Assembly: GCA_030272585.1 (NCBI GenBank) | Contig: BSYQ01000010.1 | Span: forward strand, 4,712,001-4,776,000 | Origin: Bryopsis sp. KO-2023 | Taxonomy: Eukaryota > Chlorophyta > Ulvophyceae > Bryopsidales > Bryopsidaceae | Length of the DNA stretch: 64,000 nucleotides | Direction of reading: 5' to 3' | Notes under the pieces: model-generated | What the model was told of the DNA's origin: nothing | What the model saw: the letters and a program-made list of their open reading frames with translations, nothing else | Databases searched by the model: none | Program-made: the position numbers and the translations under genes | Shown here: positions 59,877 to 64,000 of the stretch, in pieces | Position numbering within the stretch: position 1 is the first letter of the stretch | Layout: each line of letters begins with the position of its first letter

Positions 59877-61141
59877 TTTCACCGAAAAGTAACAAAAGCA
59901 ATTCAGAATTGTAGTTGATATGGAAATAGGGGACAAACTTTTCCATCCATTCTCATGGCCAGGGTTGAGCGTTTTGTTCCGCAAGAGGTGATCCTAAAAT
60001 GCAAGTTCCCTTGGATTTGCTTTGCTCCCAAAGAATGCAAACTTTTATTTGTCAGTCTCTGCATCAAAGTGGGCGAGCACATTACGTGGATTGAATGGAT
60101 TATGCCAATTTGGATATCCGCACCGCTTTGTTTCAGGTTATCAACATCGATTTTGATATTTTTTCGTTTTATTTCTTTTAAAAAGAAACATGTGGAAAGA
60201 ACGGAAGCAAGTAAACAAACGCTGATGGTCGATTGGGTGGTAAACATGTGCACTTGGGTTGTTACTTCAAGTTGTTTTCTGGCACACTGGGGGTTGATGA
60301 CCTCTATCTGCGTTGTATTTTAATTATTTGTGCGTTGCCTTGGGGGTGTAGAGGGGGAAGGGATAAAAAGGAACGGCAAAAGGAACGGCTCTGCCTTTTG
60401 GTTCCTCAGTGATAGTTTATGACTCTTCGAGTCGCAGCCAATATCAGAGTCAGAGAGCTGGCTCAGTCACTGATTGAGGGTGGCTGTCGTGCGCGAATGG
60501 GAGGGGATTAATCCAATGTTGGGAGTGGCGCCAAACAATGTGAGGTGGTTTTCGTGGATGGCAAGAAATCAGAAGCGAAAAAACACATCCCCAGCACTGT
60601 TGGAATCAGAATAACAGGATCGACACTCCAGCCTTGCCGATTTCATATTCATGGTCACACCTCCACCCGTTTCCGATTTCATATTGACGGCCCCACCTCC
60701 ATCCATTGCATGGTTTTCCAGAAAGTGTGCTTGATTGACCACAGGCCTGGGAGACCACCCAACCACCGACTTCTATCAGCGCATCACGGCGACCACATGG
60801 TGTGCCATCATATTGTGTTTAATAGGTCCCCCCCCACACCCCATTGCTGAAAATTCTGTTATGGTTTAACGAGCGATACAAAAGCTTGCGATTTTAAGAG
60901 TGTTCCACACAGACTGATTACAGTCTGACTAATCGGAATAGATTGTTGTGAGGAAGTTAGACGATCGAGAGGAGGGAAGAGTTAGATCGATGTGAGGAAG
61001 TTAAGTTACTGGAATGGATGTGAAACGACGCTTGACAGAAACTGGGGAAGGTATTTATCGGGAAGGAAACCCGGAACAATCTAACAGTGTAAGAAAGACT
61101 CAAACGATCCACAGCTCGTTTCACGCAAGGATTGGGAAAAC
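59877..61141. other. Region upstream of the retroelement-like ORF, possible LTR/leader
   Basis: No coding exon is supported. A sequence beginning TGGCGCC at 60526 resembles a tRNA primer-binding site, and GTGAGGAAGTTA is repeated near 60950 and 60992. If the ORF at 61142 belongs to an LTR element, the 5' LTR would end just left of 60526. I cannot define its ends, so this remains a suggestion. Confidence 0.3.
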
Positions 61142-62359
61142 ATGGGTTTCACTGTACATGGTTTCGGAGCCGAAGACGTTTCTGGACGCTACGCTACCAG
61201 AACGAACAAAAGAGTAATTTTCTCACCTCTCTCGCTCGCTTGGCTCATCATTTTCTTTTCGACCACCTGCATACACACGGTGGACGGAGGTCTCTTCGCG
61301 ACAGCTCAAGACAAGGCGTTGGCAGCGTTGGAAAAAGAAAAAATGAAGCTCAGAGCAAAAGTAATGTCACTCTCGGAGCAGCTCAGAGATGAGCGCCGAC
61401 TACGAGAACACCCTTACCATTGGTATATCCGCGAACGCGGTGATCAACCACCCCCTGACGACCCTACACCTCCACCCAAACTGGAACACAAGTGGGAGAC
61501 CACCCGCGAAAAAGACCCACTCGTCAAAACGGCGGGGTGGTTCTCTTTTTTTCGACTATCTACAGGAAAAGGCAAACAACAAGAAATATGCGCAAAATGG
61601 GACACCTGTCTCACTCTTTTCACCAGCGCTTTCTTCCAGGCCATCAACTCCCTGTCTACCGCCGTGAAGACCTTTTTCCACGACCCCTTTGACGTTTTTG
61701 GCGCCATGCCCCACCGAACCCGCCAATGGTTCTCGTCACGCCTGGATACGATGTCGCAACTCTTTGGAGCATTCCTGGCGTTCCTCCTGGTAAACGTCCT
61801 GGCTTTCGTTTACCTCAAGCTCTCCAGTGTGATCAAAACAATCAAAGGGACTCTACTTACGATGGGGAAGCTGCCGGTCGTCACGCTCGCGACTACTACT
61901 GGCACATGGCTCCTGCGCACGACGTGGAAAAGTGTCGCTTCACCGACCCACACGATCGAACTGCAGGCGCAACTCAAAGGACTTCAGGAGACGGTGGCTG
62001 AGCTCAAGGCGGACAAGGAACAACAATGTGGCTACTGTGGGTGGAGGGGACACACGGAAAAAAACTGTAGGAAAAAGAAGCAGACGACAAAGATTACTAA
62101 CAATGTAACCAGCCATTCGAAGTGCGCAGCAGTTTCGACATCCCCATCCCTTCTACACACCTCCATCACCATTCAAAATTGTCACCTAAAATCCTGCCTG
62201 ATCGATACCGGATCTCAGGCGTGCCTCCTTCCCCTCTCCATCGCCAAACGGTACGGGATTCCGTATAGTACCACACTCGACACTCCCAAGCAACTGGAAG
62301 TGAAACGACTATCTTTTTTTCGAACGACTTTGCTGCAGAAAGACTCTTTTTACACTTAA
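61142..62359 (+). CDS. Retroelement-like Gag/protease fragment with hydrophobic segments
   Basis: An uninterrupted 405-codon frame. In order: a hydrophobic segment (about 26-46), a charged coiled coil (about 53-92), a Pro-rich stretch (103-113), a second strongly hydrophobic segment (about 207-225), a short coiled coil (270-293), a CCHC zinc knuckle C-x2-C-x4-H-x4-C (296-309, CGYCGWRGHTEKNC) followed by Lys-rich sequence, and the start of a retropepsin-like protease with the catalytic motif DTGS (355-358, in CLIDTGSQACLLPLS). The knuckle plus DTGS order is that of Gag-Pol in LTR retrotransposons. The protease is cut off about 50 residues after DTGS and no reverse transcriptase follows, so the element is truncated or decayed. 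Two membrane-type helices are not usual for retrotransposon Gag. No typical splice structure is seen. Confidence 0.65.
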   Translation: MGFTVHGFGAEDVSGRYATRTNKRVIFSPLSLAWLIIFFSTTCIHTVDGGLFATAQDKALAALEKEKMKLRAKVMSLSEQLRDERRLREHPYHWYIRERGDQPPPDDPTPPPKLEHKWETTREKDPLVKTAGWFSFFRLSTGKGKQQEICAKWDTCLTLFTSAFFQAINSLSTAVKTFFHDPFDVFGAMPHRTRQWFSSRLDTMSQLFGAFLAFLLVNVLAFVYLKLSSVIKTIKGTLLTMGKLPVVTLATTTGTWLLRTTWKSVASPTHTIELQAQLKGLQETVAELKADKEQQCGYCGWRGHTEKNCRKKKQTTKITNNVTSHSKCAAVSTSPSLLHTSITIQNCHLKSCLIDTGSQACLLPLSIAKRYGIPYSTTLDTPKQLEVKRLSFFRTTLLQKDSFYT

Positions 62360-63240
62360 ACCAAGACATACAAACAACCACAAAGCCCTTCTTATTTCCT
62401 TGCATCCTCTATTCCTGACTGTACTCTCCGCCTAGTCGACTAGGAACTTCGACAGCGTGTCGTCTCTTTTCAACCCTTCTTCGAGTCTCTAGAAGGTTAG
62501 TCGCGCCTTTGTTGCGCCTTCGTTAACTCTTGCTGCAGTGACGGCTGACGCCTCACACGAAGTTCCCACTCTCGATGCCAGCTTGTCGACATATCACGTG
62601 ATCTCTGCCGCCAATGCTGCATCCCTCTCACGTGCTGCATCTCCTGCAGCGCGACGCTGCTGCGATCTCCGCAGCACTCCCTATGTCAGTCATAGACTGT
62701 TGTGCTTGTCTGCCACGGTGTTGCTACACCTCTCTCATCGTTACGCACGGGGAAGTAATACTATTGTAGTAGTCCTATCACGACTTCTCTCTTGCAGCAG
62801 TCGTGCTTTCCCTTGCAGCGTCGATGACTCCTCTATGTCGGTCTGCTGCTGCACTTCGTTCCTCTTGTAGCAGTCGGTCCTAGACCTCATATATCATCTT
62901 CCTGATGTGACGGCGCCTGCAGCACTCGTTCACATCCCTTGCTGCATCTCCTGTGAATATCCATTCATGGAGTAGCAGCAGTAGTATTAGTCATAGCAGC
63001 AGCAGCAGCAGCATTCTGCTCTGCTGTCTTGCTATGAGTGTTGGACCCTTTTTAGGGTAGAACTGCCAGTAGTACTGGTCCAGTTCTGCATCGTTACATT
63101 CCTCCCCACCAGGTTCCTGACTGTCCCTAGTCAGTTTGTTGAACCTTTATCAACCTTTATCAATGTAGCTTTGACATTCTGTCAGGTGTTGCAAGCTGCA
63201 GGTTGCAGCTGAATTCCATGAACCTTTTTTTGCCAAAATA
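62360..63240. repeat. CTGCTG/CAGCAG-rich low-complexity tract
   Basis: Degenerate trinucleotide-type sequence rich in TGCTGCA and GCAGCA words, with a pure (AGC) run near 62996-63013. The perfect 14-bp palindrome CCTAGTCGACTAGG lies at 62431-62444. No coding frame is credible; the 110-codon plus frame at 62538 is Ser/Cys/Leu low complexity. It could be a decayed LTR or untranslated part of the neighbouring element. Confidence 0.5.
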
Positions 63241-63480
63241 TTCATTTTCTTACAATACCAAGGGAGAAACCTTCTCAACCTATGGTGCCATATCAAAATG
63301 TTCATGTTCTTATAATCCTCAGGGAGAAACATTCTCAACCTGTGATCCCACACCAAAAAATGTTCATGTTCTTGTAATCCTCAGGGAGAAACATTCTCAA
63401 CCTGTGATCCCACACCAAAAAATGTTCATGTTCTTGTAATCCTCAGGGAGAAACATTCTCAACCTGTGATCACATATTCC
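63241..63480. repeat. Four-copy tandem repeat, unit about 62 bp
   Basis: Units at 63241-63300, 63301-63362, 63363-63424 and 63425-63480. Each begins TTCATGTTCTT (first copy TTCATTTTCTT) and carries CAGGGAGAAACATTCTCAAC. Copies 2 and 3 are nearly identical, while copy 1 is diverged and copy 4 is cut short. The GAGAA...TTCTC core is an inverted repeat. The last unit contains the stop codon of the minus-strand zinc-finger frame. Confidence 0.9.
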
Positions 63481-63998
63481 AACACTTGCCAAGGTCCATT
63501 GTCAGAATTTTTAGCCCCCTGCACTCCAACTCCCAAAATTTCTTCTTTCCTTTGAACCGTGGTTTTTACGATCACATTCCCCAAAAGTCTGTTAGGTCGG
63601 ATGCCTCCTAGTGAATGGGCTGTCGTCGTGAGATCACAAAGTGTGCAATGCCCAAAACCCTTGATGCCGGGCCATCCCATTGACTCGGAGACATCCACCT
63701 GTACCGATACTCTGCGACTGCGCCCACCCCCGCTGCTGGACACGCGAACTCGATCGGCTACCCAAGCTTTTCGCCAGCAGTCGGGGTGGGCGCAGAGGCG
63801 GTGATCACCACATCCCATCATGGTAATGGGTGTGCATTTGCTTCTGAAGCAAATGCTGCATGTTTTAGGCTCGTGTGGCAGCACATCGCGCAATCCTTGC
63901 AGCAACGCGATTGCTTGCGGTTGGACCCCTCCCTGGACTGGTGCTGGTACTGGTACATTTTCTTCTTCTCCTTGTGTCTCCGTGGTCGGGTCGTCCAT
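63459..63998 (-). CDS. RING-like zinc-finger protein, hypothetical
   Basis: An ATG at 63998 opens a 179-codon frame. After an acidic, Pro/Gln-rich N-terminus come C47-x2-C50, C55, C63-x2-H66-x2-C69-x-H71-x2-C74 and, 44 residues on, C118-x2-C121 (TCSICFRSKC, GCGDH, CAHPDCW, HCTLCDL). The spacing resembles a RING or related cross-brace zinc finger with a long insert, so a ubiquitin-ligase or nucleic-acid-binding role is possible but not shown. The frame ends inside the last unit of the tandem repeat, which suggests either a real 3' end overlapped by repeat expansion or a coding exon read through its donor. Closeness to the retroelement fragment makes origin in a mobile element possible. Confidence 0.5.
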   Translation of the reverse strand: MDDPTTETQGEEENVPVPAPVQGGVQPQAIALLQGLRDVLPHEPKTCSICFRSKCTPITMMGCGDHRLCAHPDCWRKAWVADRVRVSSSGGGRSRRVSVQVDVSESMGWPGIKGFGHCTLCDLTTTAHSLGGIRPNRLLGNVIVKTTVQRKEEILGVGVQGAKNSDNGPWQVLEYVITG

Positions 63999-64000
63999 AT

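Follow-up and report, generated by a model that had tools for sequence, protein, structure and literature searches.

The window, by which we mean the whole 64,000-nt stretch of Bryopsis sp. KO-2023 DNA analysed (contig BSYQ01000010.1, positions 4,712,001 to 4,776,000), carries near its right end an open frame of 405 codons at 61142-62359 on the plus strand, as the initial annotation had described. The unit to which this frame belongs starts upstream of it, at 60901, and consists of the following parts.

60901..61158 (+): 5' LTR of 258 bp, TGTTCCACAC...CACTGTACA, with 100% identity along its whole length to an LTR of copy L042
61142..62300 (+): surviving frame of Gag and the protease start, 386 whole codons
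61159..61171 (+): primer binding site TGGTTTCGGAGCC; it is the complement of the last 13 nt at the 3' end (with CCA) of the host's initiator tRNA-Met and also codes for HGFGA of Gag
61217..61273 (+): hydrophobic leader, residues 26-44, found by hydropathy and read as a signal peptide or signal anchor
61292..61417 (+): residues 51-92, helical and perhaps a coiled coil, by an alignment-free model and periodicity; dN/dS 0.04-0.12 in three comparisons
61589..61609 (+): CX5C pair, residues 150-156, with C150 and C156 invariant in 11/11 sequences
61760..61816 (+): predicted transmembrane helix, residues 207-225, Kyte-Doolittle mean 2.46
62027..62068 (+): CCHC zinc knuckle, residues 296-309; the profile matches HIV-1 nucleocapsid (E 0.0012)
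62147..62300 (+): aspartic protease start with DTGS, interrupted by the nested element
62301..64000 (no strand assigned): start of the nested element, read as an LTR retrotransposon, with its left LTR from 62301; it extends beyond the window end

The hydrophobic leader, the second hydrophobic segment, the CCHC knuckle (CX2CX4HX4C, residues 296-309) and DTGS (LIDTGS, residues 353-358), which had been noticed from the letters, are each present by hydropathy and translation. The coiled coil noticed along with them is a more divided case: the alignment-free model does give a helix at residues 29-89 (mean pLDDT 54.7), but the periodicity is uneven between copies. Searched by itself, the window copy gives little. 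Pfam yields weak protease matches only (E 0.046 and 0.12), the window protein finds the knuckle and chance matches only among PDB entries (best E 0.074), PHROGs gives no match below E 0.059, and no relatives were found in the viral contigs scanned.

Where does the element end? The match of the window copy to L032, L033 and L042 stops at 62300. The 600 bp from 62301 have a second copy of 100% identity, in the same orientation, at C10:4783322 (9021 bp on), and 26 more occurrences of lower identity or coverage elsewhere. Between the two 600-bp repeats, on the minus strand, is a canonical Ty3-type pol, and the pol of the Gag element resumes 9.8 kb on, at C10:4784127-4785326, in an open frame of 447 codons; this segment is 100% identical to the piece of L042 used as query. 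Because of the LTR-like repeat at 62301 and the pol continuation beyond it, we conclude that a second young LTR element is inserted in the protease region of the window copy, at 62300/62301. The same two observations rule out a 3' truncation of the copy. Thus the protease, called truncated in the initial annotation, does stop at 62300, but it is interrupted and not cut off. Nor is the frame intact up to its stop as was supposed: its last 19 codons and the stop (62301-62359) derive from the start of the nested element, so the intact end is accidental. L032 and L033 also break where new sequence opens with TG; L034 does not. The nested Ty3-type element continues in L031 to the end of that stretch, and besides its pol it has a minus-strand frame (L031 5462-6856), 3' of pol, with a weak RING-type match (E 0.0069, below cut-off).

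The genome (91.1 Mb, 28 contigs) was then searched with the frame, and it gave 62 matches at E up to 0.001. For seven of them the surrounding open frame is 1465 or 1469 codons long and encodes Gag-PR-RT-RNase H-integrase, so that full-length copies with all of these domains in one frame do exist; four of the seven were read, and each lies between identical LTRs. In L039, Pfam identifies RVT_1 (1.8e-24), RNase H (8.9e-11) and the integrase models DDE_3 (3.6e-7) and rve_3 (1.6e-6), with rve (2.2e-4) below its cut-off. The order PR-RT-RNase H-integrase is full in L039, while in L046 the integrase is above cut-off and RNase H is unmatched at E 0.1.

Twenty stretches were fetched, of which 12 have both LTRs complete; no LTR pair was seen in the fetched stretches L031, L032, L033, L034, L040, L047 and L049, and L041 has a further pair that is cut by the stretch edge. 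As aligned, the LTRs measure 255-263 bp in the window's family; those of the other families are longer, at 312-499 bp. They run TG...CA, and 10 of the 12 pairs are 100% identical, the other two being L039 (99.62%, with its single mismatch past the LTR end) and L045 (94.83%). Target duplications, read by eye, flank 11 of the 12 copies, with 4 bp in 6/6 of family 1 (the window's) and 5-6 bp in 5/6 of the others, L048 being the copy without one. At the position expected for a polypurine tract, a G-rich stretch ending GGGCCCA or GGGCACA precedes the 3' LTR in 11/12, though it contains T and C; in the exception, L043, the LTR alignment does not begin at the LTR edge. On this sequence evidence, the frame in the window is the 5' part of a young, recently active LTR retrotransposon, here interrupted.

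One family has all domains in a single frame; in the other three, to which L044-L046, L047/L048 and L050 belong, pol is read in the -1 frame. The heptamer A AAA AAC, a putative slippery site, stands at the end of Gag(-PR), directly or one codon before the stop, in all five copies listed. In L039, L046, L048 and L050 no frame reaching 200 codons that could be an env was found in the stretch from pol to the 3' LTR, and the room there is about 180 bp in L039, about 60 in L048 and about 90 in L050.

The LTR ends ACA, and TGGTTTCGGAGC(C/T) follows directly behind in 11 of the 12 copies. In the remaining one, L036, five extra bases stand between LTR and primer site, and an ATG is missing at the usual Gag start. 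The host tRNA gene with the matching 3' end is tRNA-Met(CAT) according to ARAGORN, for which one site of the initiator-type pattern was fetched; this pattern finds the tRNA 3' end 23 times exactly and once with a mismatch. An elongator-type T-arm pattern was also tried for the primer tRNA, and no tRNA was found at any of its 4 sites. The host initiator tRNA is presumably of plant-like type. The primer motif pattern is found at 218 places genome-wide versus 3 for the reversed control, and other LTR families may therefore use the same primer site. Note that the Gag start codon lies inside the LTR, 17 bases before its end in the window copy (own A counted) and 1-29 bases before it in six copies (L035, L039, L042, L046, L048, L050). 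The primer site is therefore translated, which explains the HGFGA stretch common to the families of L039, L047/L048 and L050. Copies of the initiator tRNA-Met 3' end recur in C5:6912124-7047807, C9:5578865-5671152 and C10:5077376-5128482, near contig ends and in steps of about 11 kb or more, as if in tandem arrays.

There is a further question of what kind of protein this Gag is. Four families were read (L035-L039; L043-L046; L047/L048; L050). Outside the window copy's own family, the identity of Gag to the window copy is 22-31%, and the layout is common to all four, with CX4CC in the place of CX5C in three of them. Hydropathy was taken as 19-residue Kyte-Doolittle means and compared, protein by protein, with the maximum over 500 shuffles. 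In the window copy the leader has a mean of 1.88, the second segment 2.46 against a shuffle 99th percentile of 2.28, and a lesser peak at residues 157-175 has 1.18. Three of eight Gags, all of family 1 (window, L035, L039), have a transmembrane peak above the 99th percentile; in the other five it is below the 95th percentile, and the leader, which is N-terminal in 8/8, is below the 95th percentile in 8/8, and both of these results speak against the membrane reading. Since single peaks mostly fall within the shuffles, the case for a membrane rests on conserved position: what is above chance is that both hydrophobic segments recur at corresponding places in four families. For comparison, no 19-residue window in the pols of L039, L046, L048, L050 and the canonical element reaches 2.0, and the windows of 1.6 or more among them are two in L050 and one in L048. 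A test for 3.5-residue periodicity, which also scores non-helical stretches, gives a clear signal in the helix region of L046 and L048 and a weak one in that of L039; in the window copy and L050 this region does not reach the four best-scoring stretches.

One explanation is that this is an ordinary LTR retrotransposon with a diverged soluble capsid, whose hydrophobic stretches are buried capsid helices and whose leader is accidental. Capsid domains can escape sequence profiles, the single-sequence model (low confidence, without alignment) is all helical in the membrane part, and the shuffles just described point the same way. However, a 19-residue stretch that is charge-free or nearly so, with a mean of 1.99-2.46, is found in all eight Gags together with the N-terminal leader across four families, and no capsid is matched by Pfam or by structure profile. 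Among the Pfam matches of all 11 Gags at E up to 1 there is no capsid family, while two aspartyl-protease models match 11/11 within that limit (best E 3.5e-6). Against solved structures, the alignment profile finds DDI1 proteases (E 1.2e-4), its matches to capsid-bearing PDB chains (e.g. 6tap, 5o2u, 8vvw) fall at the knuckle region, and the membrane part has weak membrane-protein matches only (Orai, E 0.036). The profile search that the initial annotation had proposed for retropepsin, knuckle and Gag thus recovered the aspartyl protease and the nucleocapsid knuckle, and no capsid family. We regard a hidden soluble capsid as a possible but on the whole doubtful explanation.

Selection was compared part by part, in the order window-L035, window-L039 and L035-L039, with few silent sites per part. 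For Gag overall, dN/dS is 0.21, 0.24 and 0.18. It takes values of 0.12, 0.06 and 0.04 in the first coiled stretch, 0.15, 0.04 and 0.30 in the transmembrane part, 0.45, 0.64 and 0.31 in the second coiled stretch and 0.05, 0.23 and 0.68 in the knuckle. Residues 1-50, with 0.60, 0.42 and 0.67, are the laxest part of Gag in two of the three comparisons, on few silent changes, which is against the membrane reading. By these ratios the membrane-type Gag is under purifying selection. Might it then be a host gene domesticated from a retroelement, as had been suggested? The open frame and the purifying selection in Gag would agree with that, but selection between subfamilies is expected of an active element too. 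The window copy is one of many, with LTR and primer site, and target duplications occur in the family, so it is not a single locus free of element structure; near-identical copies have a complete pol, and the window copy itself is split by the nested element. Domestication is therefore extremely improbable here.

Two further tests also speak against the membrane reading. No N-glycosylation sequon is present between leader and transmembrane helix in the five Gags scanned, and the charges around the helix of the window copy are even, with 3 K/R on each side. The net charge before the leader core is positive in 5/5 Gags scanned, and this, in a photosynthetic host, would also suit a leader that targets Gag to plastid or mitochondrion, where the second hydrophobic stretch would be the anchor. 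Only 10 (L048) and 17 (L046) residues stand ahead of the core, however, more like secretory signals, and organelle targeting seems to us quite improbable.

To place the lineage, RT pieces of three families were compared with solved structures by phmmer. The best scores, 104, 102 and 91 bits, are to entries 7kse and 7o0g/7o0h (Peptidase A9/RT/RNase H, Pr125Pol), which we take to be foamy virus RT, followed by p80 RT entries, presumably gammaretroviral, with 82, 80 and 64 bits, and Ty3 with 61, 55 and 53. Shorter MMLV RT constructs reach 51-53 bits in L050, level with Ty3. Foamy-type and most gammaretrovirus-type RTs thus outscore Ty3 in 3/3 families, as match scores and not as a tree. In the adjoining canonical element (L031) Ty3 is best with 264 bits and the foamy entries have 71-75, an unequal comparison, as that stretch is without the N-terminal RT part. 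Among 104 of 1574 candidates scored, the RT of the window family is about 38-46% identical to other families of the same kind and about 25-35% to most other RTs. Match scores and within-genome identities, which are not a tree, speak for an element lineage outside the usual Ty3 group, and the earlier suspicion of an unusual lineage agrees with them. Also supported is the earlier reading of the frame as an LTR retroelement in which Gag, bearing membrane-type helices, precedes the protease.

What could such a Gag do? It is probable, in our judgement, that the elements form a recently active LTR retrotransposon lineage, one copy of which is interrupted, and that their Gag precursor is an integral membrane protein. 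The basis is the LTRs, the initiator-tRNA primer site, the target duplications, the order Gag-NC-PR-RT-RNase H-integrase, the conserved hydrophobic segments and the selection. The leader would send the nascent Gag chain to the ER, the N-terminal helical part would enter the lumen, and the conserved helix would anchor the chain in the membrane, while the second coiled stretch, NC, PR and Pol would remain cytosolic. NC may then collect the element RNA on the membrane, and the replicating particle may assemble on the membrane or bud into it, with a membrane-bound Gag layer in place of a soluble capsid shell. A bolder scenario, which we hold to be speculative and rather improbable, is that Gag and envelope are one protein: the lumenal helical domain, CX4CC/CX5C and the transmembrane helix would be an ectodomain coating a membrane-bound particle. 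An env-less algal element would then make enveloped particles from one membrane-spanning Gag, might travel from cell to cell, and would have an RT lineage closer to retroviruses than to Ty3.

A membrane-crossing Gag would be unusual for retrovirus-like jumping elements. The expectation for LTR retrotransposons is a soluble capsid shell; membranes are believed to have come to retroviruses through a separate env gene. If the membrane-bound Gag is true, a recently active family whose Gag spans the membrane and in which no capsid domain is detected would be another way to tie a retroelement to membranes, and the need for a capsid shell in reverse transcription would become testable in an alga. In the titles and opening lines of abstracts of open-licence literature, no description of a membrane-spanning Gag of an LTR element was found, which is weak evidence of absence.

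Comparison with known systems gives partial likenesses. With Ty3/gypsy (Metaviridae) the Bryopsis element shares LTRs, a tRNA primer site, CCHC and the order PR-RT-RNase H-integrase; it differs in a Gag with leader and transmembrane-type helix, in a capsid not found by sequence and in an RT that scores Ty3 below the foamy and gammaretrovirus entries in all three families. Foamy viruses (Spumaretrovirinae) provide the best-scoring solved RTs, but the Bryopsis element has little room for env after pol, and its protease is in the Gag frame behind the CCHC knuckle, which is not the foamy arrangement. In Ty1 (Pseudoviridae) the Gag start lies inside the LTR and the primer site inside the frame, as computed here for the Bryopsis element, but integrase precedes RT, unlike in Bryopsis. 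Yeast Ty1 Gag reaches the ER by SRP (PMC3945221), which is a precedent for the ER routing of an LTR-element Gag that we infer in Bryopsis. Ty1 Gag is without recognisable signal sequence or transmembrane domain (PMC3945221), whereas the Bryopsis Gag has both predicted. Drosophila MDG1-group LTR elements without env encode a transmembrane protein, sORF2, which is a separate short frame upstream of a gag with CA region (PMC11952523); the membrane part of the Bryopsis element is, by contrast, the N-terminal half of the Gag chain itself.

Some minor observations concern the host and other copies. The photosynthetic host has 107 matches to light-harvesting PF00504 genome-wide, counted exon by exon. 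Two near-identical copies of the window subfamily lack parts of Gag. The gap of 126 bp in L034 is divisible by three and leaves the frame open; that of 151 bp in L042 breaks it, with Gag matches in two frames. L040 contains two stretches of 2147 bp, 99.95% identical, on one strand and about 5.1 kb apart, perhaps tandem element copies. When Gags of two other families served as queries (E up to 0.01), 49 and 62 matches were obtained, further divergent members among them, e.g. C8:3604879, C6:6649152, C1:10446019 and C9:5062011.
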